The notes below the pieces were generated by a model. It did no database searches and was not told where the DNA came from. It saw nothing but the letters and a program-made list of their open reading frames with translations. From the NCBI GenBank assembly GCA_946623755.1, contig CAMORK010000004.1:1-64000 (forward strand): a DNA stretch of 64,000 bases. Direction: 5' to 3'. Below, one piece after another: positions 20,172-36,116 of this stretch (positions within the stretch are counted from its first letter, which is position 1; each line of letters opens with the position of its first letter). This DNA comes from an uncultured Butyrivibrio sp. (GTDB lineage: Bacteria > Bacillota > Clostridia > Lachnospirales > Lachnospiraceae). A program made the position numbers and the translations under genes.

Positions 20172-20178
20172 AAAGTGA

Positions 20179-20265
20179 CTGACTTGATGAGGTACTTTCG
20201 AATCTAGTCAGAACTTTGTTCTGGCGAACGCAGTGAGAGCAGAACTTCATTGTTATTATGGAAGG
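20179..20265 (+). repeat. Structured intergenic element, copy A, before ispG
   Basis: Hairpin 1: ACTTGAT (20182-20188), loop GAGGTACTTTCGA, ATCTAGT (20202-20208), extended by C-G, T-A and G-C pairs at 20179-20181/20209-20211. Hairpin 2: GTTCTG (20218-20223) with CAGAAC (20240-20245). A third short pairing CTTC (20245-20248)/GAAG (20261-20264) takes in the GGAAGG ribosome binding site of ispG. GTTCTG can instead pair with CAGAAC at 20209-20214, so two folds compete. It shares its layout with the elements before polC and rnhA. Confidence 0.75.
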
Positions 20266-20274
20266 GATATAAGA

Positions 20275-21336
20275 ATGTATAGGAATCAAACAAAGGTAAT
20301 CCATATTGGCGACAGAGTAATCGGCGGAGGCAATCCCATCCTCATCCAGTCCATGACCAACACAAGGACTGAGGATGTTGAAGCCACAGTTGCCCAGATA
20401 AAGAGACTTGAGGAGGCCGGATGCGAGATCATTAGAAGTACCGTGCCTACGCTTGAAGCAGCCAAGGCTATTGCCGAGATCAAGAAGCAGATCCATATCC
20501 CAATCGTTGCGGATATTCATTTTGACTATAAGATGGCCATTGCAGCCATTGAAAACGGTGCAGACAAAATAAGGATCAATCCGGGCAATATCGGAGGCAG
20601 GGACAGAATAGCCTCCGTTGTATCATGTGCCAGGGAGAGAAATATTCCCATCAGAGTCGGTGTAAACAGTGGCTCTCTGGAAAAAGACCTTGTGGAGAAA
20701 TACGGCGGAGTTACAGCTCAGGGACTTGTTGAATCGGCCCTTGATAAGATTGGAATTATCGAGGATCTTGGCTATGACAACATGGTTGTCAGCATCAAGT
20801 CTTCAAATGTAATGCTCTGTGTAGAGGCTCATGAGCTTCTGGCTCAGAAGTGCCGCTATCCGCTTCATGTCGGTATCACTGAGGCCGGAACGGTTTACGG
20901 CGGAAACATCAAGTCGTCCATAGGACTTGGAATCATCCTTAACAAGGGAATCGGAGATACCATAAGGGTTTCCCTCTCAGGGGATCCTGTTGAGGAGATC
21001 AAGACAGCCAAGATGATCCTTAAGACTCTCGGAATGAGAAGCGGCGGAATTGAAGTGGTATCATGCCCTACATGCGGAAGGACCAAGATCGATCTTATCG
21101 GACTTGCCAATGCGGTTGAGACCATGGTTCAGGGGTATGACCTCGACATCAAGGTTGCAGTTATGGGCTGCGCAGTAAACGGACCTGGAGAAGCCAGGGA
21201 AGCGGACATCGGAATTGCAGGCGGCGTGGGAGAAGGCCTGCTTATTAAGAACGGAGAAGTAGTTAAGAAGGTTAAGGAAGACCAGTTGCTCGCTACGTTA
21301 AAGGAAGAGTTGGACAAGTGGGCTGAGAGAACTTGA
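20275..21336 (+). CDS. ispG: (E)-4-hydroxy-3-methylbut-2-enyl-diphosphate synthase
   Basis: A 353-aa iron-sulfur enzyme (GcpE), the step before IspH in the MEP pathway. [15 protein letters not shown] and DIHFDYKMA lie in the TIM barrel, and [11 protein letters not shown] with [18 protein letters not shown] supply the [4Fe-4S] Cys residues. I start at the ATG at 20275 with GGAAGG 9 bases upstream. A GTG 42 bases earlier would place coding sequence over the structured element and lacks a ribosome binding site. The last two codons form the 5' arm of the next repeat element. Confidence 0.95.
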
Positions 21337-21397
21337 CGAGGTATTATCGAGTCTAGTTCGAACGTGTTACGCGTAAGCGTAACTTCCTTGTGAGGAA
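21329..21397 (+). repeat. Structured intergenic element, copy B, before polC
   Basis: Hairpin 1: ACTTGAC (21331-21337), loop GAGGTATTATCGA, GTCTAGT (21351-21357), with A-T and G-C outer pairs at 21329-21330/21358-21359. Its 5' arm contains the ispG stop codon. Hairpin 2: GTTACGC (21366-21372), GTAA tetraloop (GNRA type), GCGTAAC (21377-21383), a perfect 7-bp stem. TTCCT (21384-21388) can pair with AGGAA (21393-21397), covering the polC ribosome binding site. Confidence 0.78.
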
Positions 21398-21401
21398 TAA
21401 A

Positions 21402-24400
21402 ATGGGGAAGAGTTTTTTTGAAGTATTTCCTGCTCTTAAGCTGGATGAACACACCGGCGATATCATGGGGCAAACTGAGGTTGTAAAGGTTTCAACCACC
21501 AGGAAACAGGATTTTATTAGAATTTACATTGCCAGCAACAAGCTGATCGATAAAGCTGATATCATCAAAACTGAGAACAGCATCAAAAAGCAGCTTTTTG
21601 GCGATCAGGATATAACCATCAAGATATACGAGAAGTTCTCACTTTCGGCGCAGTACACGCCGGAGAACCTCTTGGACATATACAGAGAGAGCATTGAGCT
21701 TGAGCTAAAAGACTATGACCATATGGAGTATAGTCTGTTTCGCTCGGCTTCTTTTTTGTACCCTGATCAGGGTAATGTCATCATGCAGCTGGAAGACAGC
21801 GTTGTGGGCAAAAAGAAAGCCCCTGACCTTATCCGCGTGCTCTCCAAGATTTTCAATGACAGATGCGGACTTTCAGTAGTTCTTTCCCCTGAATTTGTCG
21901 AAGTTGAAAAAGAGGATAAGGAACCCGATTACTCCGAGGAATCAGCCAAGATGGCTAAAAAGCTTGAGGCAATGGAGGAGAAGGAGGCAGAGAAGCAGGC
22001 TGAAAAGGCGGCCAAAGCTGCTGAGAAGGCTGCTCATGCCAGGGCCGAGAGTAAGGCACCTGAAGCAGCTCCTAAGGCAGGCGCTCAGAAGTCTTTTGGC
22101 AAAAGAGATTTCGGCGGAAGCTACAAGAGAAGCGATAATCCGGATGTACTCTTCGGAAGAGACTTTGATGATGAGGCAATGAAGCTTGTTGACCTGATGG
22201 GCGAGCTTGGTGAAGTTACCATTCACGGCAAGATCATCGAGTTTGATTCAAGAGATATCCGAAATGACAAGACTATTCTCATCTTTGCAGTTACCGATTT
22301 TACGGATTCGATAGCAGTCAAGATGTTTGTCAATACTGCGGATGTTCCCGCTATAACGAAGGACATCAAGATGGGAGCCTTTGTTAAGATCAAGGGAATT
22401 GCTGCGGTTGATAAGTTTGATCACGAACTCTCAATCCAGTCTGTTGTAGGTGTCAAGAAGATCCCTGACTTTACCGTCAAGAGAGTTGATACTGCGGATG
22501 AGAAGAGAGTTGAGCTCCATTGCCATACCAAGATGAGTGATATGGACGGAGTTTCAGAGGTAAAAGATATTGTAAAACAGGCCTACAAATGGGGAATGCC
22601 GGGTATTGCCATTACTGACCACGGTGTTGTTCAGGCTCTTACTGATGCCAATCACGTGTGGGAAGACCTTTACAAGGACGAGAAATCAAGGCGTAAAGAG
22701 GCAGGAGAACCTCCTCTGGACAGACAGGATTTCTTTAAGCTTGTACTGGGTGTTGAGGCCTACGTAGTAGACGATCTTAAGGAAATTGTTGTAAATGACA
22801 AGGGGCAGAAGCTTGATGATACTACCTTTGTAGTATTTGATATTGAGACAACGGGCTTTTCACCTATCAAGAACAAGATCATTGAAATTGGTGCCGTTAA
22901 GATCAAAAACGGCGAGATTGTAGACAGATTTTCAGAGTTTATCAATCCTCAGGTTCCTATTCCCTACAGGATTGAGAAGCTCACCAGTATCACCGATGAC
23001 ATGGTTATCGGCGCTCCTACCAGAGAAGTTATCATACCGAAGTTCGTAGAGTTCTGCGAGGGAGCAGTACTTGTGGGACACAATGTGTCTTTTGACATAA
23101 GCTTTATAAATCAGAACTGCGAGGAGCTGGGTATCGATGTGGATTACACTACCGTTGATACGCTGTGGCTCTCAAGATATTTCTTCCCGCTGCAGGCCAA
23201 GCATACACTGGACGCAGTGGCCAAGACTTTGAATATTGTATTGGGACATCATCACAGAGCTGTAGATGATGCTGAGTGTACTGCGCTTATTTTCAACAAG
23301 TTTGTACCTATGCTCAAAGAGCAGGGTGCTGAGGATCTGACTCAGGTCAATATACTTGGCAAGCCGACACCCGAGATGATAAGGCATCTTCGTCCCAATC
23401 ACTGCATTATCCTTGCCAAGAATACTCTGGGAAGAGTTAATCTCTATACCCTTGTAAGTAAGTCGCATATAGATTATTTCAGAAGATTTCCTCTTATACC
23501 TAAGAGCGAGCTTATCAAATACAGGGAAGGTCTTATTATTGGAAGTGCCTGCTGTGCGGGAGAATTGTACGGTGCAGTTGTTGAGGGAAGACCACCCGAA
23601 GAGATTGCAAGACTTGTAAGCTTCTATGACTACCTGGAGATACAGCCTGTGGGCAACAATCACTTCATGGTTGAGTCAGAAAGATATGAGGACATCAACA
23701 GCGATGACGACATAAGAGAGATCAACAAGGAAATCGTAAGGCTCGGCGAGCAGTGGAATAAGCCTGTTGTTGCTACATGCGATGCGCATTTCTTAAACCC
23801 TGAGGATGAGATATACAGAACCATCATCATGGCAGGTAAGGGCATGAATGATGAGGAACCGGCACCGCTGTATCTCAGAACTACAGATGAGATGATGGCT
23901 GAGTTTGACTATCTGGGCGGTGAGAAGGCAAAGGAGATCGTAATCGACAACACCAGAAAGATCCTGGATATGTGCGATTCAATTTCGCCCGTTCGTCCCG
24001 ATAAGTGTGCGCCGGTAATTCCCAACAGTGATGAAATCCTTACCAAGATCTGTTATGACAAGGCTCATGAAATCTACGGAGAGAACCTTCCCGAGATAGT
24101 TCAGGAGAGACTTGAGAGAGAACTTAACTCAATCATTAAGAACGGTTTCGCGGTTATGTACATTATTGCCCAGAAGCTGGTTTGGAAGTCCAATGAGGAC
24201 GGATACCTGGTAGGCTCCAGAGGATCCGTAGGATCTTCTTTTGTTGCCTTTACTTCGGGAATTACAGAGGTTAACTCCTTAAGCCCGCACTATGTATGCC
24301 CTAATTGTAAGTACTCCGACTTTGATTCTGAGGAAGTTAAGGCTTACGGCGGAAATTCAGGCTGTGATATGCCTGATAAGATGTGTCCAAAGTGCGGAAC

Positions 24401-25928
24401 CAAGATGAACAAGGACGGATTTGATATTCCGTTTGAGACTTTCCTTGGATTCAAGGGAGATAAGGAGCCTGATATTGACCTTAACTTCTCCGGTGAGTAT
24501 CAGAGTAAGGCCCACAAATACACAGAGGTTATCTTTGGTTACGGACAGACCTTCAGAGCCGGAACCATAGCGTCTCTTGCGGATAAGACAGCCTACGGTT
24601 TTGTCAAGAAGTACTTTGACGGAATCGGCGTCAGCAAGAGAAAGAGTGAGATCAACAGGATAGTTCAGGGCTGTACCGGCATAAGACGCGGTACCGGTCA
24701 GCACCCGGGAGGAATCATAGTTCTTCCTGTGGGAGAGGATATCAATTCCTTCTGTCCTGTTCAGCACCCAGCCAATGATATGACCACGGCCACAATAACA
24801 ACACATTACGATTACCACTCAATCGACCACAACCTTCTAAAACTCGATATTCTGGGACACGATGATCCTACCATGATAAGGTTTTTGCAGGACTGCACGG
24901 GAATGGATCCCAAGACTGTGCCCTTAGATGACAAGAAGGTAATGAGTCTTTTCATGAATACTACAGCTCTGGGCATTGAGCCTGAGCAGATTGGCGGAAC
25001 CAAGCTGGGATGCCTGGGACTGCCTGAGTTTGGTACGGACTTTGCCATGCAGATGGTTATTGATGCGCAGCCCAAGTCTCTTTCCCACCTTATAAGGATT
25101 TCAGGTCTTTCACACGGTACCGACGTTTGGCTAGGTAACGCCCAGACCCTGATCCAGGAGGGTAAGGCAACAATTGATACCTGTATCTGCTGTCGTGACG
25201 ATATCATGATCTATCTGATCCAGAAGGGACTTGATAAGTCTGAGTCCTTCAAGATCATGGAGGCAGTACGTAAGGGTAAGGTAGCTAAGGGCAAAGAGAG
25301 CAACTGGGAGGCCTGGAAAAAAGACATGATAGATCACGGCGTACCTGACTGGTACATCTGGTCCTGCGAGAAGATCAAGTACATGTTCCCCAAGGCCCAT
25401 GCGGCTGCTTACGTTATGATGGCCTGGAGAATTGCGTATTTTAAGGTTTATATGCCACAGGCCTTCTATGCAGCGTGGTTTTCAATCAGAGCTAAGGCCT
25501 TCAACTATGAGCACATGTGCCAGGGTGAGAATCACCTTCACAGCATAATGAAGGATTACTTAAGCCACAAGGACGAGCTTACTAATGCCCAGCAGGCAGA
25601 GTACGGAGATATGAGACTGGTCGAGGAGATGTACGAGAGAGGTATCGAGTTTATGCCGATCGACATCTTCAAGGTTAAGTCCAGGGATTTCCAGGTTATC
25701 GGAGATAAGATCATGCCTGCTCTTACCAGTATCGACGGTATGGGCGAGAAGGCTGCGGACCAGATCGTTGAGGCGGCCAAGGACGGACCGTTCCTTTCAA
25801 AGGACGACTTCCGCCAGAGGACCAAGTGCCCTCAGACTGTTATCGACAAGATGTCCGATATGGGACTTTTGGGAGATATCCCTGATTCCAACCAGATAAG
25901 CCTGTTCGACCTTATGAAAGGATTCTAA
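21402..25928 (+). CDS. polC: DNA polymerase III alpha subunit, Gram-positive type PolC
   Basis: A 1508-aa replicative polymerase with built-in proofreading. Parts in order: N-terminal domain, a Lys/Ala/Glu-rich linker (about 165-240), OB-fold, PHP domain split around the exonuclease (ELHCHTKMSDMDG near 370), DEDD exonuclease (FDIETTGFS near 480), then the C-family polymerase with GSRGSVGSS and PDIDLNFSGEY (near 1022) holding catalytic Asp residues. A Cys4 zinc site (CPNCKYSD and CPKCGTKM) lies between them. I start at the ATG at 21402 with GAGGA 5 bases upstream, not at the GTG at 21390, which falls inside the upstream hairpin. Confidence 0.97.
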   Translation: MGKSFFEVFPALKLDEHTGDIMGQTEVVKVSTTRKQDFIRIYIASNKLIDKADIIKTENSIKKQLFGDQDITIKIYEKFSLSAQYTPENLLDIYRESIELELKDYDHMEYSLFRSASFLYPDQGNVIMQLEDSVVGKKKAPDLIRVLSKIFNDRCGLSVVLSPEFVEVEKEDKEPDYSEESAKMAKKLEAMEEKEAEKQAEKAAKAAEKAAHARAESKAPEAAPKAGAQKSFGKRDFGGSYKRSDNPDVLFGRDFDDEAMKLVDLMGELGEVTIHGKIIEFDSRDIRNDKTILIFAVTDFTDSIAVKMFVNTADVPAITKDIKMGAFVKIKGIAAVDKFDHELSIQSVVGVKKIPDFTVKRVDTADEKRVELHCHTKMSDMDGVSEVKDIVKQAYKWGMPGIAITDHGVVQALTDANHVWEDLYKDEKSRRKEAGEPPLDRQDFFKLVLGVEAYVVDDLKEIVVNDKGQKLDDTTFVVFDIETTGFSPIKNKIIEIGAVKIKNGEIVDRFSEFINPQVPIPYRIEKLTSITDDMVIGAPTREVIIPKFVEFCEGAVLVGHNVSFDISFINQNCEELGIDVDYTTVDTLWLSRYFFPLQAKHTLDAVAKTLNIVLGHHHRAVDDAECTALIFNKFVPMLKEQGAEDLTQVNILGKPTPEMIRHLRPNHCIILAKNTLGRVNLYTLVSKSHIDYFRRFPLIPKSELIKYREGLIIGSACCAGELYGAVVEGRPPEEIARLVSFYDYLEIQPVGNNHFMVESERYEDINSDDDIREINKEIVRLGEQWNKPVVATCDAHFLNPEDEIYRTIIMAGKGMNDEEPAPLYLRTTDEMMAEFDYLGGEKAKEIVIDNTRKILDMCDSISPVRPDKCAPVIPNSDEILTKICYDKAHEIYGENLPEIVQERLERELNSIIKNGFAVMYIIAQKLVWKSNEDGYLVGSRGSVGSSFVAFTSGITEVNSLSPHYVCPNCKYSDFDSEEVKAYGGNSGCDMPDKMCPKCGTKMNKDGFDIPFETFLGFKGDKEPDIDLNFSGEYQSKAHKYTEVIFGYGQTFRAGTIASLADKTAYGFVKKYFDGIGVSKRKSEINRIVQGCTGIRRGTGQHPGGIIVLPVGEDINSFCPVQHPANDMTTATITTHYDYHSIDHNLLKLDILGHDDPTMIRFLQDCTGMDPKTVPLDDKKVMSLFMNTTALGIEPEQIGGTKLGCLGLPEFGTDFAMQMVIDAQPKSLSHLIRISGLSHGTDVWLGNAQTLIQEGKATIDTCICCRDDIMIYLIQKGLDKSESFKIMEAVRKGKVAKGKESNWEAWKKDMIDHGVPDWYIWSCEKIKYMFPKAHAAAYVMMAWRIAYFKVYMPQAFYAAWFSIRAKAFNYEHMCQGENHLHSIMKDYLSHKDELTNAQQAEYGDMRLVEEMYERGIEFMPIDIFKVKSRDFQVIGDKIMPALTSIDGMGEKAADQIVEAAKDGPFLSKDDFRQRTKCPQTVIDKMSDMGLLGDIPDSNQISLFDLMKGF

Positions 25929-26309
25929 ATGGCAGTAACACTTACAACAAAAACATTAACAAAAGAGGCTGTAAAGGCTATAGCTGCCGGTCAGATGGAA
26001 AAGTTCGATCTGAAGAAGACAAGAAAAAATGTTGCGGAATATGTTGAACCGATTAAAAAGAGATTTTCGCTGGCATGCGTGCTTCTTATAGCAATGACAC
26101 TTCTTATGGGGGCTACGACAGCTATAAATCTCGGCAGTAATGGAAATTTGGATTTCGTTACATTGCTGTTCATATTTGTTCCGATGATCCTCTTTATTGC
26201 AATCGCTTTTGGATTTATCGGTTGGCTCAGCTTTGGGCGAATGACCGGACAGTTTAACAGAGCACTCAAAAAGGGATACCCGGAACTCTACGATGAATTA
26301 AAGGTCTGA
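25929..26309 (+). CDS. Small two-helix membrane protein
   Basis: A 126-aa hypothetical protein that starts at the base after the polC stop, with AAAGGA inside the end of polC as its ribosome binding site. The first 45 residues are basic and cytoplasmic in look. Two hydrophobic helices follow (about 50-72 and 78-108), then a short charged tail. I do not recognise a family. The direct abutment suggests co-expression with polC, but no functional link can be read from the sequence. Confidence 0.7.
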   Translation: MAVTLTTKTLTKEAVKAIAAGQMEKFDLKKTRKNVAEYVEPIKKRFSLACVLLIAMTLLMGATTAINLGSNGNLDFVTLLFIFVPMILFIAIAFGFIGWLSFGRMTGQFNRALKKGYPELYDELKV

Positions 26310-26361
26310 TATATAACAAACATTTGCAAAAACTGATAACTGCGACGAGGAGATAAAGAAT

Positions 26362-27405
26362 ATGATAGATGTGTTTGGAACCCTTGGCCCAAGTTGCAGG
26401 GATGAGGCAACACTTTCTGAGATGTTCTATGAAGGCATGACGGGAATCAGGATCAATCTCTCGCATGTTATGCTTACAGACTGTCTTGAGGATATTGATA
26501 AGGTCAAAAGAGCTGCATCTGCCAATAGAATCGTTCCAAAGATCCTGATAGATATGCAGGGACCGGAACTCAGGATTGGCAATCTGGATGCGCCTGTAAG
26601 CTTGAATGAGGGCGATGAGCTGGTGCTTGGATCCAAGGGACATGCTGTAATGTCAGAACATGAAAATGCAGATATAAATGGGATTACTTCTGACAATACA
26701 GCCGGGGTAGTAACACTTGATAAAAGAGTTCTCAAGGCACTTGAACCCGGACAGGAGGTACTCTTTGATGACGGCAGGATAGCAGCAACCGTCACGGAGA
26801 CCGGTGATGAGTATGCCAGGGTCCGAATCACAAGAGGAGGAGAACTCAGCGGAAGAAAGAGCATAGCAATAGTCGGAAGATCAGTTGATATGCCGGCGCT
26901 TACAGACAGCGATATTGAGAATATAAAACTTGCCTGTAAGAGTGGGATATACGGAGTCATGCAGCCCTTTGTCAGAAGTGCGGACGATCTTTTGGAAGTC
27001 AGAAAGATGCTTGATCTAAACGGCGGAAAAGACATAAAGATATACGCCAAGATTGAGAACCGGAGCGGCGTAGAGAATCTCGAGAGCTTTTTTGACCGGG
27101 CAGATGAGATCATCATAGCAAGGGGAGACCTTGGAAATGCTGTTCCTCTGTGGGAACTTCCCGGACTGCAAAAAGACATTGCCCGTAGGTGCAGAGCTTC
27201 GCATATGCCATTTATGGTGGTGACCCAGATGCTCTCGTCAATGGAGCACAGCAAGGTTCCAACAAGAGCTGAAGTGAGTGACATCTACAATGCAGTTATG
27301 GACGGTGCATCTTCCGTCATGGTAACCGGAGAGACAGCGGTAGGTGAGTACCCGGCAGATGTTATCAGGTATATGAGAAAGACTGTAGTAGCAGCAGAAG
27401 ACTAA
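26362..27405 (+). CDS. Short pyruvate kinase paralogue lacking the C-terminal domain
   Basis: A 347-aa protein matching the pyruvate kinase barrel and inserted B domain. FGTLGPSC, IRINLSH, IDMQGPELRIG, YAKIEN (with the catalytic Lys), IARGDLG, VTQMLSSM and PTRAEVSD are all present, so substrate and metal residues look kept. MQGP replaces the usual TKGP. Normal bacterial enzymes are about 470-590 aa; this one ends right after the barrel, so the C-terminal allosteric domain is missing. It is unlikely to be a broken gene since the frame is clean and a hairpin follows. It may be a non-allosteric kinase or act on a related enolate. Confidence 0.8.
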   Translation: MIDVFGTLGPSCRDEATLSEMFYEGMTGIRINLSHVMLTDCLEDIDKVKRAASANRIVPKILIDMQGPELRIGNLDAPVSLNEGDELVLGSKGHAVMSEHENADINGITSDNTAGVVTLDKRVLKALEPGQEVLFDDGRIAATVTETGDEYARVRITRGGELSGRKSIAIVGRSVDMPALTDSDIENIKLACKSGIYGVMQPFVRSADDLLEVRKMLDLNGGKDIKIYAKIENRSGVENLESFFDRADEIIIARGDLGNAVPLWELPGLQKDIARRCRASHMPFMVVTQMLSSMEHSKVPTRAEVSDIYNAVMDGASSVMVTGETAVGEYPADVIRYMRKTVVAAED

Positions 27406-27410
27406 AAAAT

Positions 27411-27449
27411 AAGTGAATGTGTATTGACATATGCATTCACTTGTTTTAT
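27411..27449 (+). terminator. Hairpin after the short pyruvate kinase
   Basis: AAGTGAATG (27411-27419) pairs with CATTCACTT (27434-27442), continuing inward with TGTAT/ATATG, then GTTTTATA. It is probably a terminator but shares bases with the promoter of the arsR gene. Confidence 0.5.
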
Positions 27450-27452
27450 ATT
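27424..27452 (+). promoter_or_regulatory. Strong promoter of the metal-efflux operon
   Basis: Perfect TTGACA (27424-27429), 17-base spacer and TATATT (27447-27452). The -10 end touches the inverted repeat that follows, so a bound repressor would block RNA polymerase. Confidence 0.88.
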
Positions 27453-27482
27453 CAACATATGAACAATTATTCATATGTTGAA
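27451..27482 (+). promoter_or_regulatory. ArsR/SmtB-type operator
   Basis: A perfect 13-bp inverted repeat, TTCAACATATGAA (27451-27463) and its complement (27470-27482), around CAATTA. The core ATATGAACAATTATTCATAT matches the known ArsR/SmtB operator pattern for zinc and cadmium sensors. It covers the -10 and the likely transcription start of the arsR gene, which fits autorepression. Confidence 0.88.
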
Positions 27483-27498
27483 ATGAAAGGAAGATGAT

Positions 27499-27858
27499 AT
27501 GTCACTAAACGATGTAGAGCACTGCGATGTAGTGCACAAGCATGCAGACGTGGTACTGAAGGTACACAGAGAGATGCCGGACGATGACAAGCTTTATGAT
27601 CTGGCAGAGCTGTTCAAGGTCTTCGGTGACTCCACAAGGATACGAATTCTCTTTGCCCTGTTTGAAGAAGAGATGTGCGTATGTGATATAGCTGACAGCC
27701 TTAGCATGACTCAGTCGGCAATATCTCATCAGCTTAAGATACTTAAGCAGAGTAAGCTCGTGGGAAACAGACGCGAGGGCAAACAGATTATTTACTTTCT
27801 GGCAGATGACCACGTAAGAACCATCATCGGCCAGGGAATCAACCATATTGAAGAGTAA
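27499..27858 (+). CDS. ArsR/SmtB-family metal-sensing repressor (CadC/CzrA-like)
   Basis: A 119-aa winged-helix repressor. EEMCVCDIADSL (Cys60 and Cys62) is the alpha-3 metal-box, and Cys9 in the N-terminal arm could complete a CadC-type thiolate site. Asp103, His105, His116 and Glu119 have the exact spacing of the alpha-5 site of CzrA/SmtB. Both sites together point to Cd/Pb/Zn sensing. MTQSAISHQLKIL is the DNA-reading helix. Its operator lies just upstream, and an HMA protein and a P1B ATPase follow, so metal binding should release the whole operon. Confidence 0.92.
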   Translation: MSLNDVEHCDVVHKHADVVLKVHREMPDDDKLYDLAELFKVFGDSTRIRILFALFEEEMCVCDIADSLSMTQSAISHQLKILKQSKLVGNRREGKQIIYFLADDHVRTIIGQGINHIEE

Positions 27859-27893
27859 ATTATGAGCCTTATGAGGGCAGAAAGGTGGATATT

Positions 27894-28109
27894 ATGAAGA
27901 AAACATTTAAGTGTGAGGTAGACTGTGCAAACTGTGCAGCTAAGATGGAGGATGCAGTTAAGAAGATCGATGGCGTTGTAAGCGCAAGAGTTAATTTCAT
28001 GACTCAGAAGTTTACACTTGAGGCTGCCGACGACGTTTTTGACAGTGTATTTGATGCGGCAGTTAAGGCCTGCAAAAAGGTTGAGCCTGACTGCTCTATC
28101 GAGGCTTAA
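27894..28109 (+). CDS. HMA-domain metal-binding protein
   Basis: A 71-aa stand-alone heavy-metal-associated domain. FKCEVDCANCAAKMEDAV has the CxxC pair (CANC) plus an extra acidic Asp before it, which is more common in Zn/Cd domains than in Cu(I) chaperones. I start at the ATG at 27894, 5 bases after AAAGGTGG; the GTG at 27885 lies inside that site. It sits between the repressor and an ATPase that has no HMA domain of its own, so it probably hands metal to that pump. Confidence 0.85.
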   Translation: MKKTFKCEVDCANCAAKMEDAVKKIDGVVSARVNFMTQKFTLEAADDVFDSVFDAAVKACKKVEPDCSIEA

Positions 28110-28139
28110 CTTAGAGTTCCACGAAGGATGTGATGATTA

Positions 28140-30038
28140 ATGACTAAGAAACAAAAAAAGACCCGCAACAGAATACTCATAGTACTTGCAATGTTTGTCA
28201 TCCTGCTGGTACTTGATAAGATCGGCATAATGGAACCGCTTCCCTGGTTTGTCAAGCTGATCATATACCTTGTTCCTTATGGGATCATCGGCTATGACGT
28301 TATTCGAAAGGCTGTTATTAACATAAGTCACGGACAGGTCTTTGACGAGAACTTCCTGATGATGATAGCAACATTCGGAGCATTTGGAATAGGCGAGTAC
28401 TCAGAGGCTTTAGCCGTAATGCTCTTTTACCAGGTCGGAGAGCTCTTCCAGAGCTACGCTGTAGGCAAGTCGAGACAGTCCATTACAGACCTTATGAGCA
28501 TTGCTCCGGAGTTTGCAAATCTGGTAAACGAAGATGGAGAGACTACAGAAGTTGATCCCGAGGAAGTAAGTGTGGGTGATATCATTCTTGTCAGAGCAGG
28601 AGAGAAGATCCCGCTGGACGGAACTGTTATTGAAGGTGAATCCTTTGTTGATACCGCAGCTCTTACAGGTGAGTCTGTTCCCAGAAGGGCGGCAGAGGGA
28701 GATGCCGTTATCAGCGGATGCGTCAACGGTGAGGGAATTCTTAAGGTACGAGTAGATAAGGTATATGAGGACTCTACAGTTGCAAGGATCCTTGATCTGG
28801 TTGAGAACGCCAGCAACAAGAAGTCCAGAATGGAGAACTTTATCACGAGATTTGCCAGATATTACACACCTGTTGTTACGATAGGAGCACTGTTCCTTGC
28901 AGTTCTTCCTCCGATATTCGGACAGCTCGCTCCCTCGGACAGTATCAGAAGAGCATGTATTTTCCTTATTGTTTCATGCCCGTGTGCTCTTGTTATTTCG
29001 GTTCCTCTTGGATTCTTCGGAGGAATCGGAGCATCCTCCAAGAAGGGCGTCCTTGTCAAGGGCTCCAACTTCCTTGAGGCAGCATCCAAGGTGGATACGG
29101 TTGTCTTTGACAAGACAGGTACTATCACAAAGGGTGAGTTTAAGGTTTCGGAGATTGTTCCGGCAACTCAGAGTGACATTACAGAAGATCAGCTTCTTTC
29201 ACTTGCAGCTTACGGTGAGATGTACTCCAATCATCCGATTGCAAGATCCATTCTTGCATGCTACATGGAGAGGAACGGCGGCGGGAAGCCTGATGCTTCT
29301 CACATAGATGAATCTCAGACCAGGGAGATACCAGGAAACGGTATCAGGACCATCCTTGAGGGCAAAGAGCTTTTGGTAGGCAATGACAAACTCATCGACG
29401 TTCCGGCATCAATAGGTCTTTTGGATGAGGCCGCAGGCACTGTGGTCTTCGTATCCTATGACGGAGCCTATGCGGGCAGCATTGTTATCGCCGATGCCAT
29501 TAAGGACGGGGTAAAAGAGGGAATCGCTGCCCTGTACGAGCTTGGAGTAAAGAGAGCAGTCATGCTCACAGGTGATAATGAAGAGGTGGCCAGACATGTG
29601 GCTGATCAGGTCGGTATAAATGACGTTAAGGCGGGACTTCTTCCTGCTGATAAGGTCAGTGCAGTTGAAAAAATGCTATCAAAAGGCGATAATGGTAACA
29701 GGCTTGCGTTTGTGGGCGACGGTATCAACGACGCTCCCGTGCTTATGAGAGCGGATGTCGGAATCGCCATGGGATCCATGGGATCTGATGCCGCCATTGA
29801 GGCAGCAGACATTGTTATCATGGACGATGATATCAGCAAGATTTCAGCTGTAATGAAGATAGCGCGCAAGACCATAAGGATTGTAAAAGAGAACATAGTC
29901 TTTGCGCTTGCAGTTAAGCTCATCATCCTGGTTCTGGGAGCACTTGGTCTTACCACCATGTGGCTTGCAGTATTCGGAGATGTAGGAGTAGCAGTAATAG
30001 CAATACTTAACTCTATGAGGGCGCTCAAGACCGACTGA
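28140..30038 (+). CDS. P1B-type heavy-metal ATPase, Zn/Cd/Pb export type
   Basis: A 632-aa metal-exporting ATPase. CPC near 280-282 in a membrane helix is the transport site, DKTGTIT (Asp near 324) is phosphorylated, TGES is the actuator loop, SNHP the nucleotide-binding His-Pro and GDGINDAP the hinge. CPC with a Lys in the last membrane helix (AVKLIIL) fits the Zn/Cd/Pb subgroup (ZntA/CadA). The N-terminus begins directly with membrane helices, so the usual HMA domain is absent and is supplied by the small gene upstream. Regulation is expected from the ArsR operator. Confidence 0.93.
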   Translation: MTKKQKKTRNRILIVLAMFVILLVLDKIGIMEPLPWFVKLIIYLVPYGIIGYDVIRKAVINISHGQVFDENFLMMIATFGAFGIGEYSEALAVMLFYQVGELFQSYAVGKSRQSITDLMSIAPEFANLVNEDGETTEVDPEEVSVGDIILVRAGEKIPLDGTVIEGESFVDTAALTGESVPRRAAEGDAVISGCVNGEGILKVRVDKVYEDSTVARILDLVENASNKKSRMENFITRFARYYTPVVTIGALFLAVLPPIFGQLAPSDSIRRACIFLIVSCPCALVISVPLGFFGGIGASSKKGVLVKGSNFLEAASKVDTVVFDKTGTITKGEFKVSEIVPATQSDITEDQLLSLAAYGEMYSNHPIARSILACYMERNGGGKPDASHIDESQTREIPGNGIRTILEGKELLVGNDKLIDVPASIGLLDEAAGTVVFVSYDGAYAGSIVIADAIKDGVKEGIAALYELGVKRAVMLTGDNEEVARHVADQVGINDVKAGLLPADKVSAVEKMLSKGDNGNRLAFVGDGINDAPVLMRADVGIAMGSMGSDAAIEAADIVIMDDDISKISAVMKIARKTIRIVKENIVFALAVKLIILVLGALGLTTMWLAVFGDVGVAVIAILNSMRALKTD

Positions 30039-30063
30039 GAGTTCTCTTTGGAGGGAGTATAAA

Positions 30064-32118
30064 ATGCCAAGAGCAGAACTTTACGTTGGAGAGCTTTTGA
30101 TGAAGATGGTCGCCAGACAGACCGGCGAGATAAGCAAGGTGGATTTTACACCTCAGAAACCGGCATTCTCATCACTCTCCTTCCCTGATGAACAGTTTCT
30201 TGAGAGATCTTCTCCGGAATCTCAGGGCGTAAGCTCTGCTTTTTTTACTGATCTGATAAGAGACCTTCAGGCAGACAGGGAGTGCAGGATGCATAAGTTC
30301 ATGGCTCTCCGTCATGGCAAGGTCATTGCAGAGTGTGCATTTGAGCCCTTTGACATGGATATGTGGCATGTGACTTATTCCATGTGCAAGTCAATTACCG
30401 GAATGGCCATAGGCATTCTGATGGGTGAGGGCAAGCTCACACTGGACGACAGGATCAGTGATATATTCAGTCCAAGAGTAGGACCCTTAAGCATTTTCAG
30501 AAAGACGGTATCAGTCAGGAATCTCCTTAATATGTCCAGCGGAGTGGACTTTAACGAGATTGGAGCCATAAGTGGCAACGACTGGCGCAAGGGCTTTCTG
30601 GATGCGTCTTTTAAATTTGATCCCGGAACAAAATTTGAATACAACAGCATGAACACGTACATGCTGTCAGCTATAGTCACCGAAATAACCGGCCAGTCCC
30701 TCTTTGATTTCTGTAAGGAGAGATTATTTGATCCCATGGGCATCAAGAGGGTATTTTGGGAGTGCTGCCCACAGAGCATAACAAAAGGCGGATGGGGAGC
30801 TTTCATGCGAATAGAGGATATGGCCAAGATGGGCCAGCTCTATCTGCAAAACGGTGTCTGGAACGGGCAGCAGCTGGTGCCTGAGGAATGGGTTAAAGAG
30901 TCAACGACGCAGCAGATAGAGACCGGACGTGAGGACAATCCTTACTACGGCTATCAGCTCTGGCTCAACGATGACAGGCCCGGATGCTTTGCCTACAACG
31001 GTATGATGGGCCAGAATGTCTTTGTATATCCCGATCTTGATATGGTGGTCGTGACAAACGCCGGTAATAGCGATGTCTTCCAGACCAGCAGCATGGCGAT
31101 CAAGATACGTGACAGGATGAAGAACACAATTGAAGTTTCGGACACACCGATCCCGGAGGACTTCAGGGCCCTTACGGAGCTTAAGGCGATCTGCAAGTCT
31201 GTAAGCGGAAGAACAGCTGATTTTCCGGTTATCAGCTCAGGGGGCTGGAAGAACAGAACAGTTCGTATGACCACCGGCTCCACCAGGAACAGGAGCATAA
31301 GCTTTTTGGGCAAAAGAACTGATTTCAAGTCGGCAGTTAATTCCTATAACATCAGGAATGAGAATCAGCTGATACTGAGATGGCTTCAAAAGCTTGATGG
31401 TAAGATTTATGACCTTGAGACCTCCGGAATAGGCTTTATGCCAATGATGATGCAGATTGTCCACAACAATTTCACCGACGGCATGAAGAAGATTGGCTTC
31501 AGGCTTGCGGAAAATGGGGCTTTCTATATCGATATCTATGAAGGCGATGTTATCTACAAGCTGAGATGCGGTTTTGGCGGTAAAAGATATATCAGTGACA
31601 TCAACATGCACTGCGAGAACTATAAGGTATCACTAAATACTGTATGTAACAGGGATGAGTACAACAGACTTACCATCAGGAACGAGATCTATTTCCTGGA
31701 GGAGGCAAGCTACAGGACTCTTAATATCTATTTTGAGGATGATGCTGTAGACAGGGTGGACAGAAAAGCGACCTTCATCCATCCCGCTGTTCCAGGCAGG
31801 ATTGAGATAAGAATGAATGAGGCTCCCGGAACCGATATGCTTCGCGACACGCTGAAAAACTTCTCGATCGAGAGTGTCGGATGGGAGAGTGCCATCATAT
31901 CAAGATTTGTTAAGGGCGGTATGAAGGAAGCTGTAGCACATGCAGTAAACAACACTGTTCAGCCTGTGATCTACGGAACACTGGCCAATCATGATCTTCC
32001 GCCATACCTTGAGGCAGTCGTAACAGAAGGCCAAGCTGCGGATACGGAAGATGTAACCGAAGATGATCAATCATTTGCAGATGCAGGTGGTGATGATATA
32101 TCATTAGATGAGAATTAA
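30064..32118 (+). CDS. Second serine hydrolase of beta-lactamase fold, extended C-terminus
   Basis: A 684-aa relative of the protein at 2390-3883. SMCK (Ser106-Lys109) is the SxxK motif, YNS near 200 replaces YxN, and FAYNGMMGQ is the third-motif region. There is no signal peptide. After about residue 370 a long beta-rich region follows, including IRNEIYFLEEASYRTLNIYF, which resembles the tail of the first paralogue. The last 50 residues are acidic and probably disordered. GGAGGGAG lies before the ATG. It may be read from the metal operon promoter, since only 25 bases separate it from the ATPase. Function is inferred to be a cytoplasmic esterase or peptidase. Confidence 0.75.
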   Translation: MPRAELYVGELLMKMVARQTGEISKVDFTPQKPAFSSLSFPDEQFLERSSPESQGVSSAFFTDLIRDLQADRECRMHKFMALRHGKVIAECAFEPFDMDMWHVTYSMCKSITGMAIGILMGEGKLTLDDRISDIFSPRVGPLSIFRKTVSVRNLLNMSSGVDFNEIGAISGNDWRKGFLDASFKFDPGTKFEYNSMNTYMLSAIVTEITGQSLFDFCKERLFDPMGIKRVFWECCPQSITKGGWGAFMRIEDMAKMGQLYLQNGVWNGQQLVPEEWVKESTTQQIETGREDNPYYGYQLWLNDDRPGCFAYNGMMGQNVFVYPDLDMVVVTNAGNSDVFQTSSMAIKIRDRMKNTIEVSDTPIPEDFRALTELKAICKSVSGRTADFPVISSGGWKNRTVRMTTGSTRNRSISFLGKRTDFKSAVNSYNIRNENQLILRWLQKLDGKIYDLETSGIGFMPMMMQIVHNNFTDGMKKIGFRLAENGAFYIDIYEGDVIYKLRCGFGGKRYISDINMHCENYKVSLNTVCNRDEYNRLTIRNEIYFLEEASYRTLNIYFEDDAVDRVDRKATFIHPAVPGRIEIRMNEAPGTDMLRDTLKNFSIESVGWESAIISRFVKGGMKEAVAHAVNNTVQPVIYGTLANHDLPPYLEAVVTEGQAADTEDVTEDDQSFADAGGDDISLDEN

Positions 32119-32136
32119 CAGAAAGGGGTAATAACC

Positions 32137-32967
32137 ATGGCAAATGCTGTATATGAAAAATTATTAAAATGCAAAGAGGCAGTAAGAAAGGTAACTGATT
32201 TTGAACCGGATGTGGCTCTGGTTTTGGGTTCGGGCCTTGGCGGCTTTGCTGAGAATATCAAGATAGAGACAGAAATTCCTTATAGCGATATACCGGGATT
32301 CCCTGTTTCAACAGTTCCGGGACATGCAGGAAAGTTCATTTTCGGATATCTCGGAGACAAGAAAATTGTCTGCATGAAGGGAAGAATCCACTTTTACGAG
32401 GGATATAACATAAGCGACGTAGTTCTTCCGGCAAGACTTATGAAGATGCTTGGTGCTAAGATTCTTTTCCTTACAAACGCAGCAGGCGGACTTGGAGAAG
32501 GCTTTGGCGCAGGTGATCTCATGCTTATCACAGATCATATCTCAATTTTTGCTCCAAACCCTCTTATCGGACCAAATCTTGACGAGTTGGGACCCAGATT
32601 CCCTGACATGTCAAACGTTTATAAAAAGGATCTTCAGGACGTAATAAGAGCTGTTGCCAAGGAAAACGGCATTGACCTCAAGGAAGGTGTTTACTGCCAG
32701 TGCACAGGCCCATCATTTGAGTCTCCCGCAGAGATCAAAATGCTTGCAAAGCTCGGTGTTTCAGCTGTCGGAATGAGTACAGTCAATGAAGCTATTGCAG
32801 CAAACCATATGGGAATGCGCATCTGCGGAGTTTCATGCATCAGTAATCTTGCAGCAGGCATTTCAGGAGAGCCTCTTTCACACGAGGAGGTTCAGGAGGC
32901 TGCAGATAAGGCAGCACCTCTTTTCACAAAGCTCGTTTCCGAGTCTATCAAGAGGTTTGAGGTATGA
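32137..32967 (+). CDS. punA: Purine-nucleoside phosphorylase (trimeric type)
   Basis: A 276-aa enzyme splitting inosine or guanosine with phosphate. VLGSGLGGFA, TVPGHAGKFIFG, GRIHFYEGY, NAAGGLGEGF and GMSTVNEAIAA follow the low-molecular-mass PNP pattern, with Asn near the end in SCISNLAAG for 6-oxopurine binding. AAAGGGG lies upstream. Its stop overlaps the start of the next gene (ATGA), so deaminase and phosphorylase are coupled: the deaminase makes a 6-oxo nucleoside that PNP can use. Confidence 0.94.
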   Translation: MANAVYEKLLKCKEAVRKVTDFEPDVALVLGSGLGGFAENIKIETEIPYSDIPGFPVSTVPGHAGKFIFGYLGDKKIVCMKGRIHFYEGYNISDVVLPARLMKMLGAKILFLTNAAGGLGEGFGAGDLMLITDHISIFAPNPLIGPNLDELGPRFPDMSNVYKKDLQDVIRAVAKENGIDLKEGVYCQCTGPSFESPAEIKMLAKLGVSAVGMSTVNEAIAANHMGMRICGVSCISNLAAGISGEPLSHEEVQEAADKAAPLFTKLVSESIKRFEV

Positions 32968-34265
32968 GAACAAGATTTTATAACGCAAGGATTCTGACTA
33001 TGGAGCCGGGAAAAGAGATCTTTACCGGCGAAGTATGGGTAAACGGAGATAAGATACAGTTCGTTGGCACTGAGAAAGAGGCCCTTGGTTACTGTGATAC
33101 TCACCAGGACTCCATACTTGTATGGGACAGGGAGATTGACTGCAAGGGCAATCTTCTCATGCCTGGATTTAAGAATGCTCACACTCATTCAGCCATGACT
33201 CTTATGAGATCCAAAGCTGATGATCTGCCGCTTTCTGACTGGCTTAATACTCAGATATTCCCAATTGAAGCCAAGATGACTGCAGAGGATATTTATCATT
33301 TATCCAAGATTGCCATTATGGAGTATCTCACCAGCGGAATAACAGCTGTTTTTGAGATGTATCTGACACCGTATTCAGTGGCAGATGCCTTCAGGGACTG
33401 CGGAATGCGCTGCGTTCAGACCAGCTGCGTCAATAACTTCAGCCAGTCTGTGGAGATGCTGGAAGGATACTACAACGACTTAAACGGAAGGGATGAGTAC
33501 AACTCATTCATTCTTGGTCTGCATGCAGAATATACCTGTTCAAAAGAGATCCTGGAAAAGACAGCTGAGCTTGTCCACAAGTACAAAGCTCCCTTCTGGG
33601 CACATATCCAGGAGACAGAATCCGAGACAAAGGAATGCGTTGAGAGATATGGTATGACTCCCATTAAACTCTTTGATTCGCTGGGGCTTTTTGATTATGG
33701 CGGAGGCGGATATCACCTTGTCTGGACCAATGACGAGGATATGGAAATCATGAAGAAGAGAGGTCTTTATGCTGTGACCAATCCGGGCTCCAACACCAAG
33801 CTGGCCAGTGGAATTGCACCTGTTTCAAAGTACCTTGAAAAGGGTATTCCTGTAGCAATTGGAACAGACGGCCCTGCCAGCAACAACTGTCTTGATATGT
33901 TCAGGGAGATGTTCCTTACAACAGGACTTGCCAAACTTAAGGATATGAATGCATCCAGTGTCGATGCAACTGAGGTACTTAAGATGGCAACTGTCAACGG
34001 AGCACATGCAATGGGGCTTACAGACTGCGACTACCTTGCTGAGGGCAAAAAGGCCGATATCATAATGCTTGATCTGTATCAGCCTAATATGCAGCCCATC
34101 AACAATATTGTTAAGAACATTGTTTACAGCGGAAGTAAGTCAAATGTTAAGCTTACAATGATCGGCGGTATCATCCGCTATGAAAACGGAAACTTCAATA
34201 TAGGTGCAGAGCCTGCAGATATCTACGCTAAGGCAGACGAAATCGGAAAGAGGTTATACAGCTGA
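32964..34265 (+). CDS. mtaD: 5'-methylthioadenosine/S-adenosylhomocysteine deaminase
   Basis: A 433-aa amidohydrolase. MPGFKNAHTHSAMTLMR carries the HxH zinc pair, and DDLPLSDWL, GLHAEYTCS, HIQETESE and GTDGPASNN give the remaining ligands and the catalytic residues of the MtaD/SsnA group. The 4-base overlap with punA supports a purine-salvage role, recycling by-products of SAM use. MTA, SAH and adenosine are all possible substrates. Start as given; no better Met is near. Confidence 0.88.
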   Translation: MRTRFYNARILTMEPGKEIFTGEVWVNGDKIQFVGTEKEALGYCDTHQDSILVWDREIDCKGNLLMPGFKNAHTHSAMTLMRSKADDLPLSDWLNTQIFPIEAKMTAEDIYHLSKIAIMEYLTSGITAVFEMYLTPYSVADAFRDCGMRCVQTSCVNNFSQSVEMLEGYYNDLNGRDEYNSFILGLHAEYTCSKEILEKTAELVHKYKAPFWAHIQETESETKECVERYGMTPIKLFDSLGLFDYGGGGYHLVWTNDEDMEIMKKRGLYAVTNPGSNTKLASGIAPVSKYLEKGIPVAIGTDGPASNNCLDMFREMFLTTGLAKLKDMNASSVDATEVLKMATVNGAHAMGLTDCDYLAEGKKADIIMLDLYQPNMQPINNIVKNIVYSGSKSNVKLTMIGGIIRYENGNFNIGAEPADIYAKADEIGKRLYS

Positions 34266-34266
34266 T

Positions 34267-35949
34267 ATGGAAGGATTAATACTCACGCTACTTGCATTTA
34301 TCGTTGTTGCTTTTGCACTGGGAATAAGAGATGCGTTAAATGCAAAAAAGTACCTGATCATCAAGCTTAAAAAGAACTATGGTAATCCACCTGCCAAAGA
34401 GTATAAGTCCGACGATCTTGATCACGTTGACGGCTTTTTCAAGAATCATCAGGAGGAAGGACAGATAGATGACATCACCTGGAATGATCTTGGAATGGAC
34501 GGAGTGTTCAAGAGGCTTAACTATTGCCTTTCTGCTGCAGGAGAGGAGTACCTGTACTATCTTTTAAGATCTCCGAGACAGACAGACGACTTTGAATCTT
34601 TCGAGAAACAGGTCTCATTCATAAAGGAGAATGATGATGACAGATTAAAGATTCAGACTATCTTCTGGGAGATTGGCCATAACAGCAGATATTCGATTTA
34701 TGACTATATTGATTATCTTGAAAATGTCTCAAATGTCAGCAATACCATGCACTATGTGATGATCGTACTTATGCTTGCAGCTATAGGCTTCAGCTTTGTG
34801 AATTTTGTTGTAGGATTTATTGCGCTTGCTATTCTGATGGCGATACAGATATTATCTTATTTTAGAATAAAGAGTGATATAGATCCTTACCTTGTCACCT
34901 ATGGATATGTTATGAGAGTCATAAAGTCCATAGATAAATTTTCTGCGATCAAGGCATCTGTATTTGCTGATGATATCAGGGAACTGGAAGGCATATCAAA
35001 AGAGTTTGCATCCTTCAGAGCCGGATCTTCGATCCTTCTTTCTGCCAATAGTAAGGTGCACTCCAGCGGAAATCCGTTGGATATTCTGTTTGATTATCTG
35101 AAAATGGTGACTCATATCGATCTCATTAAGTTCAACCAGATGTACAAACAGCTTATGGAAAAGAGGGACAGGCTCGACAAGATTCTTGAGATCACCGGAA
35201 GGTTAGAGACTGAAGTTTCAGTAGCCTGCTTCAGGGCTTCTTTTGAAAACGGATATGCCATTCCCGAATTTACAGGTGATTCCTATGTGGGAAAAGAGCT
35301 TTATCATCCCCTTATAGATGGAGCTGTTAAGAATACAATTGAGGCAAAGAGCGGTGTTCTTTTAACCGGATCAAATGCATCAGGCAAGTCCACATTCCTT
35401 AAGACCTGTGCTATAAACACCATCCTTGCTCAGTCAGTTCATACAGTACTTGGTACTGAGTACAAAGCTCCGTTTTACAGGGTTTATTCTTCAATGGCGC
35501 TTAAAGATGATATCTCCATGGGAGAGAGTTACTACATCGTTGAGATCAAATCCATAAAGAGGATAATCGATAAATCCATGACTTCAGGCAATAAGGTACT
35601 TTGCTTTGTAGACGAGGTCCTTCGCGGAACCAATACTGTCGAGAGAATAGCAGCGTCCACTCAGATATTAAAGAGCCTTATGGCAAACGGAGTGCAGTGC
35701 TTTGCTGCAACGCATGATATAGAGCTCACATCTCTTTTGAAAGATATATATGAGATGTATCATTTTGAGGGTGATGTTACGGATAATGATGTTAAGTTTG
35801 ACTATAAGCTCAAGGATGGACCTGCAACCACCAGAAATGCAATCATGCTGCTTAAGGTATTGGGATACGACGAAAATATCGTAGAGAATGCGCAGAAGAT
35901 GGCCGATGGATTCTTAAAGAGTGGAAGCTGGGAGCAGAGCACTTGTTGA
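34267..35949 (+). CDS. Membrane-anchored MutS-like ATPase
   Basis: A 560-aa protein with the MutS ATPase core at its C-terminus: GSNASGKSTFL (Walker A near 367), a D-loop-like DDISMGESYY, CFVDEVLRGTN (Walker B) and ATHDIEL. The N-terminal half has no mismatch-recognition domain. Instead there is a membrane helix at 4-22 and a hairpin of two helices at about 160-200. Such MutS-like membrane proteins occur in Clostridia without a proven job, so mismatch repair should not be assumed. I start at the ATG at 34267, one base after the upstream stop; the longer frame to 34204 is a shadow. The last two codons and stop form the arm of a repeat hairpin. Confidence 0.8.
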   Translation: MEGLILTLLAFIVVAFALGIRDALNAKKYLIIKLKKNYGNPPAKEYKSDDLDHVDGFFKNHQEEGQIDDITWNDLGMDGVFKRLNYCLSAAGEEYLYYLLRSPRQTDDFESFEKQVSFIKENDDDRLKIQTIFWEIGHNSRYSIYDYIDYLENVSNVSNTMHYVMIVLMLAAIGFSFVNFVVGFIALAILMAIQILSYFRIKSDIDPYLVTYGYVMRVIKSIDKFSAIKASVFADDIRELEGISKEFASFRAGSSILLSANSKVHSSGNPLDILFDYLKMVTHIDLIKFNQMYKQLMEKRDRLDKILEITGRLETEVSVACFRASFENGYAIPEFTGDSYVGKELYHPLIDGAVKNTIEAKSGVLLTGSNASGKSTFLKTCAINTILAQSVHTVLGTEYKAPFYRVYSSMALKDDISMGESYYIVEIKSIKRIIDKSMTSGNKVLCFVDEVLRGTNTVERIAASTQILKSLMANGVQCFAATHDIELTSLLKDIYEMYHFEGDVTDNDVKFDYKLKDGPATTRNAIMLLKVLGYDENIVENAQKMADGFLKSGSWEQSTC

Positions 35950-36108
35950 GGTATTTTCGAAACTAGTGCGAGCCCTGGGTGAACACTTGACGAGGTATTG
36001 TCGAGTCTAGTGAGAATCCCTGGCTGTGACTACTTAACGAGGTATTCTCGAGTTTAGTAGGAGCGTGTTCTGGCGAGCGAAGCGAGAGCAGAACTTCCTT
36101 AGAGAGGA
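35939..36108 (+). repeat. Structured intergenic element, triple array (copies C, D, E), before rnhA
   Basis: Three hairpins of the same family. C: ACTTGTT (35941-35947)/AACTAGT (35961-35967). D: ACTTGAC (35985-35991)/GTCTAGT (36005-36011). E: ACTTAAC (36032-36038)/GTTTAGT (36052-36058). Each has loop GAGGTATTNTCGA. Unit spacing is 44 then 47 bases, and C and D share a CCCTGG linker. Hairpin 2 follows E: GTTCTG (36067-36072)/CAGAAC (36089-36094). TCCT (36096-36099) can pair with AGGA (36105-36108), the rnhA ribosome binding site. The arm of C holds the stop codon of the MutS-like gene. Confidence 0.8.
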
Positions 36109-36116
36109 GATTTTAC

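Follow-up and report, generated by a model that had tools for sequence, protein, structure and literature searches.

Mosaic structured repeats with a constant hairpin loop at gene boundaries in Butyrivibrio and other Lachnospiraceae

The window (the whole stretch of DNA analysed, 64,000 nucleotides from an uncultured Butyrivibrio sp.) holds five core hairpins at three sites: the rseP–ispG gap, the ispG–polC gap and the region between a mutS-like ORF and rnhA (Table 1). Their places, as given in the original prediction, were confirmed; all five are on the + strand (loop positions 20189, 21338, 35948, 35992 and 36039), and each has 7/7 scored pairs and a T.T mismatch. With the loop loosened to GAGGN6CGA and 7/7 pairs, exactly five matches were obtained in the window, and none of 200 dinucleotide shuffles gave any. 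Taken by itself and with 2 mismatches allowed, the loop 13-mer was not significant in the window (9 matches vs 7.6 expected); the significance is that of the exact loop together with paired arms. The inner three pairs are those listed originally; the outer pairs change with pairing kept, as had been claimed, but the outermost pair is G-C in copy 1 and C-G in copy 3, two assignments that had been interchanged. A T-run of an intrinsic terminator was not seen by eye 3' of any of the five copies.

Table 1: Features of the hairpin elements in the window (HP2, second hairpin of an element).
Feature	Position	Strand	Remarks
Core hairpin, copy 1	20176..20214	+	rseP–ispG gap; model R1 score 50.3 bits
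HP2 of copy-1 element	20218..20245	+	GTTCTG...CAGAAC
B-type element	21320..21388	+	ispG–polC gap; ends approximate, set against other B copies
Core hairpin, copy 2	21325..21363	+	model R1 score 63 bits
HP2 of copy 2	21366..21383	+	GTTACGC/GCGTAAC
A-type element (two cores)	35932..36022	+	3' of mutS-like ORF
Core hairpin, copy 3	35935..35973	+	
Core hairpin, copy 4	35979..36017	+	within outer stem GGG/CCC
B-type element	36023..36100	+	ahead of rnhA
Core hairpin, copy 5	36026..36064	+	
HP2 of copy 5	36067..36094	+	

The copies had been described as intergenic; copies 2 and 3 are not purely so, since they overlap stop codons. The ispG stop codon (21334-21336) falls in the left arm of copy 2, and ispG owes its final codons, stop included, to the surrounding B-type element; in copy 3 the arm/loop border is spanned by the stop of the mutS-like ORF (35947-35949), and the A-type element gives this ORF its C-terminal tail EQSTC and stop codon (the TGA comes from the T-A pair beside the loop). 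Copies 3 and 4 together make up a single two-hairpin unit, and companion hairpins HP2, absent from the original prediction, were found at all three sites. Single-sequence folding gave modest scores for whole elements (z −0.77 to −1.92); for HP2 of copy 1 the lowest-energy fold favours a different pairing, the centroid retaining part of HP2, and for copy 4 the outer stem was kept with the upper part of the core shifted.

The core consists of an upper stem (3 pairs), the T.T mismatch, a lower stem (4–6 pairs) and a 13-base loop; the loop consensus, mostly G A G G T N Y T N T C G A, would permit two G.A pairs and one G-C pair under a seven-base loop. For the covariation test, 14 dispersed copies were aligned gap-free over 8 pairs and set against 500 shuffles: 94.6% of cells were paired, two-sided change occurred in 6/8 pairs, and 22 cells were two-sided. 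Percentage paired, number of two-sided cells and covariation score were each reached by 0/500 shuffles, the number of two-sided pairs by 5/500 and that of pair types by 14/500; none of the slid registers came close to the true one. The fold is conserved, the arms changing in step among dispersed copies.

Distinct contexts of the loop GAGGN6CGA were then collected from the loci (364), and 258 of them have at least 6/7 pairs. The mismatch column, left free by the search pattern, is T.T in 254/258 cores; the loop is mostly GAGGTNYTNTCGA across the family. Watson–Crick pairs occupy positions 1–3 and 5–7 in 243–252 of 254 cores, some of these columns being constrained by the search pattern. Cores with exactly one non-Watson–Crick pair of six gave G.T 14, A.C 3, other 7; the G.T excess (14/17) corresponds to a two-sided binomial p of 0.013, relatedness of the copies being ignored. 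An earlier pattern-limited wobble count was weak: G.T 17, A.C 9 (pairs 1–3, 5, 7); with pair 8 included, G.T 17, A.C 22; pair 6 contributes G.T 1. Since G.T exceeds A.C (14 vs 3), folding is likelier in the strand given here than in its complement, be it as RNA or as single-stranded DNA.

The core is a module within bigger two-hairpin elements, namely type A (two cores, the second enclosed by an outer stem), type B (core and second hairpin GTTCTG..CAGAAC, then TTCCTT) and further types in other genera. The outer arms of the second hairpins in 76 two-core elements gave a mean duplex energy of −8.02 vs −4.51 for shuffled partners (lowest of 50 shuffle means −5.02); the HP2 arms of 52 candidate B-type tails gave −6.07 vs −3.45 (lowest of 100 shuffle means −3.88). 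The outer arms differ in letters between elements with pairing retained. At the livG–livF site one core has A-type flanks in two loci (L064, L065) and B-type flanks in a third (L057; by eye); the family is therefore mosaic. One element (L035) is chimeric, apparently joined within the loop. The tail EQSTC with its stop, encoded by the element, ends three unrelated proteins (window 35932-35949; L022, L024), and insertion thus rewrites C-termini.

Several further forms were observed. Pairing is possible between the tail TTCCTT of a B element and AGGAA/GGAG in the ribosome site of the gene behind it (21384-21394, 36095-36107); one such pairing is present in the fold of 36020-36110, and it may act as a translation switch. 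In L324 a B element is apparently shrunk to its two ends, as if both hairpins had been deleted between short repeats. Palindromic MITE-like elements of ~100–300 bases, similar within a genome and with the core inside, were noted in L151-L153, L352-L354 and L198. Some genera carry tandem units of ~90 bases with TATAAT ahead of the hairpin (L146-L149, L355-L364, L365-L367), possible promoters in arrays with 5'-terminal hairpins; one such array precedes a LepA-like gene (recognised by eye).

A model (R1) was used for genome searches. The window's genome (60% complete) gave 38 matches at E ≤ 1 and 35 at E ≤ 0.01; its loop motif occurs 16 times vs 2 for a reversed control, the usual stem being absent from at least 2 of the 16 (L008, L012). 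Among 61 genomes near the window 36 match, that is 35/37 of the same genus and 1/24 of the others (the latter at E = 0.008); two same-genus genomes are without a match and three more have only 1–2, and the element is therefore dispensable. In a family-wide draw 100/397 genomes and 90/334 genera match at E ≤ 0.001, copy counts being lower bounds since 16 candidates were scored per genome; in a class-wide draw 9/391 genomes match at E ≤ 1e-4, all of the window's genus or family. The exact pattern was found in at least 120 stretches of named genomes; of 80 of these, most bear the label Lachnospiraceae, Butyrivibrio or that of a genus commonly assigned to the family, and broader or other labels among the 80, taken as given, are Clostridium sp., Clostridiaceae, Clostridiales, Eubacteriales, Bacteroides sp. 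and Ruminococcus sp. In the viral contigs searched for exact matches the pattern was absent, and so no carriage by phage was seen. Further copies in relatives, the outcome on which the original prediction had staked the family, were thus obtained, and its guess of a structured repeat of wider spread was right.

The window gave no Rfam matches at the gathering threshold; at E ≤ 1, 15 loci gave 10 matches, none credible on the core, which are read as rRNA, tRNA, sub-threshold TPP and chance families. One of these searches returned a palindrome-driven miRNA match overlapping the element in L198 (E 0.07). A TPP riboswitch match below threshold (37.3 bits, gathering 54.3) lies at 4148-4228 of L211. 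The original prediction had not recognised the family, and no match to it was obtained in Rfam. In the parts of the open-access literature consulted, a structured-repeat family of this kind was not found described for Lachnospiraceae: the main text of a REP survey (PMC3733652), as far as consulted, nowhere uses the terms Firmicutes, Clostridi, Butyrivibrio or Eubacterium; the sections consulted of a stem-loop survey (PMC2267715) cover two Clostridium species and no Lachnospiraceae by name; a microbiome RNA survey (PMC8040213), from the portion consulted, holds thousands of candidates, among which an unnamed entry for the repeat is possible.

Placement was examined relative to genes and transcription landmarks. 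In the window's genome the closest ORF upstream runs in the same direction at 30/30 copies (best 30 of 38 matches; some share one element). An ORF lies directly upstream of 21 first hairpins, whose 39-base match starts at −16 to +4 of the ORF end in 20 and at +20 in the remaining one (counts by hand). Another copy of this genome sits 3' of a tRNA-Pro gene. Over 59 loci of the genus, 55/57 upstream ORFs are co-directed, and the first copy at each window site is within REP-like distance of a stop, between same-direction genes. Short operon gaps alone would force or favour insertion near the stop codon. In G342, TATAAT stands immediately before the hairpin in 10/10 fetched loci, with a TG extension in 8/10; the −35 match has a mean of 3.80 vs 2.38 at control positions (0/20000 resamplings as high), at least 4 letters being matched in 5/10 loci. 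As TATAAT recurs in the tandem units, it may belong to the G342 element itself. In G463, T-rich DNA precedes 10/10 of the near-identical copies fetched; a clear terminator hairpin lies upstream in 7/10, a likely one in 2 more, and 1 copy is behind another copy. An RNA role behind a terminator is hard to see. The shared locus L049/L192 places G463 probably in Butyrivibrio. In all three cases copies lie in sense directly at a landmark, namely stop codons for the window's genus, −10 boxes for G342 and terminator T-runs for G463.

The prediction that all copies are on the coding strand holds for the window's genome; it fails for named loci of other genera, where orientation to genes is mixed (+/+ 22, −/− 20, +/− 10, −/+ 7; 14 matches inside an ORF, 13 without two flanks; 86 of 113 examined, crude ORF calls), and the sense rule is therefore limited to some subfamilies. 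Flanking genes, their protein names recognised from sequence alone, are unrelated (ispG–polC, uvrB–uvrA, ptsH–ptsI, livG–livF, pncB–nadE, tRNA genes), and no shared pathway was recognised among them.

Presence and absence at orthologous sites were first read by eye and then scored with the model. A core is present between ispG and polC in 5/30 ispG loci (of 41 genomes, model search): the window, L158 (type A), L172 (type B), and L165 and L166 (weak or decayed); between rseP and ispG it is present in 1/30 loci, the window's own. The nearest three loci by IspG identity (95–96%; L155-L157) have no core at ispG. A different repeat was seen ahead of ispG in L155 and L171, with a common stretch close to GAGGAAAAAAGATACGCGAAGAATGAGCG. 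At rnhA a core is present in 3/30 loci and absent from 27/30 (model search): in the mutS-like/rnhA gap the window has A and B, L319 (RNase H 97% identical) B alone and L320 (96%) A alone; two loci (L324, L328) are remnant-like by eye, and in L332 the upstream gene differs. By eye, the rnhA site showed no target duplication. Close relatives differ, at one and the same site, in whether they carry a whole element.

A Y1 (REP/IS200-type) transposase was considered as a common mobiliser and rejected, its presence not tracking the repeats: a core lies near the Y1 gene in 2/44 Y1 loci, and Y1 matches are absent in G342, G195 and G183, each of them with several to many core matches, and in same-genus G020, G023, G025, G032 and G035, each with 17–46. 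G463 has 11 Y1 matches, and there Y1 is a possible mobiliser. A reverse transcriptase was likewise rejected: RVT_1 gave 0 matches in G000 (60% complete), G463 and G342, the search matching in 20/33 genomes. As each enzyme gave no match in some carriers, neither is common to all, and different subfamilies may use different mobilising enzymes.

Taken together, the elements are best read, at a probability of roughly 0.6, as a mosaic, mobile structured repeat, REP/BIME-like without the REP tag or transposase, which probably acts as an RNA hairpin at transcript boundaries. The RNA function is what we infer from the sequences. In the window's genus the element would be transcribed between operon genes, its hairpins folding after the ribosome leaves the stop codon to give a double hairpin separating two cistrons. 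Such a double hairpin might shield the upstream message from 3'–5' decay and the downstream one from 5'–3' decay; it may also modulate termination or translation, cf. E. coli REPs near stop codons, which, according to the part consulted of PMC12306157, lower translation when fewer than 16 nt from the stop. A protein confined to this bacterial family could recognise the element by its constant loop and T.T mismatch. The most economical guess, by analogy, is a boundary role in decay and translation, because the first window copies meet the REP stop-codon distance and lie between co-directed genes.

Against an RNA at transcript boundaries stands a purely selfish miniature DNA element, whose hairpin would be a single-stranded DNA site for a mobilising enzyme, with no function in messages; this is possible, if rather unlikely. 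It would explain the near-identical dispersed copies in G463 and the insertions behind terminators, the palindromic MITE-like relatives with a core (L151-L153, L198, L352) and the mixed orientation in named loci; similar copies of ~200 bases in G195 fit too, two of the four sharing flanks, so that part may be a larger duplication. Individually diverged copies in one genome, however, retain pairing and mismatch, and in the window's genus the copies stand strictly in sense at gene boundaries; movement by Y1 in particular is opposed by the carriers devoid of it and the rarity of cores at Y1 loci. Doubtful, at present, is a broader proposal which joins movement to function: the superfamily would insert in sense exactly at landmarks (past −10 boxes, at stop codons, past terminator T-runs), possibly through a machine that sets the hairpin, as a single strand, into the coding strand laid bare in a transcription bubble or R-loop; the hairpin would afterwards be retained, marking a transcript boundary for a family-specific protein to read.

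A cis-regulatory RNA of a regulon (riboswitch or protein-bound leader) is very improbable. The constant loop with covarying stem, the nearness to downstream gene starts and the promoter-proximal subfamily of G342 would suit it, but the flanking genes are unrelated, presence varies at orthologous sites, and no expression platform was seen by eye; a ligand switch or regulon is not supported, nor is the "new cis RNA" offered in the original prediction, in its usual regulatory sense, since the flanking genes share no recognised pathway and the elements come and go. Neutral quasi-palindrome correction, in which template-switching at replication copies arm onto arm and yields covariation without selection, would account for almost purely Watson–Crick arms and the chimera joined in the loop (L035), and is scarcely credible because the T.T mismatch, which correction would erase, is retained, with the loop constant and G.T exceeding A.C.

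If borne out, the transcript-boundary repeat would give a major gut- and rumen-dwelling bacterial group a large structured-repeat family, one that changes promoters, operon junctions and the ends of genes; a trans-acting partner is suggested by the constancy of loop and mismatch, and sense placement at specific landmarks is a clue to an unusual way of moving.

Among known systems, BOX/RUP/NEMIS-type repeats are small and intergenic and can be transcribed and fold, as the present elements may; their hosts differ. Group IIC introns insert in sense directly after terminator hairpins, like the G463 copies; the present elements differ in having no RNA of intron size, and an intron-encoded reverse transcriptase was not found in G000, G463 and G342. 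Palindromes derived from IS200/IS605 resemble the core elements in their two same-strand hairpins, an unpaired T in the stem and no visible target duplication, and differ in that the Y1 transposase does not track the present repeats. Of MITE features, inverted ends were seen by eye in L151-L153, L198 and L352 and not in the A and B types of the window. A REP-type identity, named at the outset as the finding that would overturn the proposal, applies in behaviour and fails in its marks. An imperfect hairpin of 20–40 bases in many extragenic copies is present (35 matches at E ≤ 0.01), and the mosaic of repeat units and extra motifs typical of BIMEs is found (A, B and other types); an unpaired GTAG/CGTC at one foot is not constant (some copies show GTAG by eye, and the bases before the hairpin vary: GCAG, GTAG, GAGA, CATTG, TATG, TTTTCGG), no RAYT/Y1 transposase is associated, and the units inspected in the window and among A and B types are direct, not alternating. 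The likeness to REP/BIME lies in short extragenic hairpins in many copies downstream of genes and in mosaic composites; the differences are the lack of a constant GTAG/CGTC foot and of a REP-associated transposase, units that are direct rather than inverted, and conservation here of the loop and mismatch rather than the stem.
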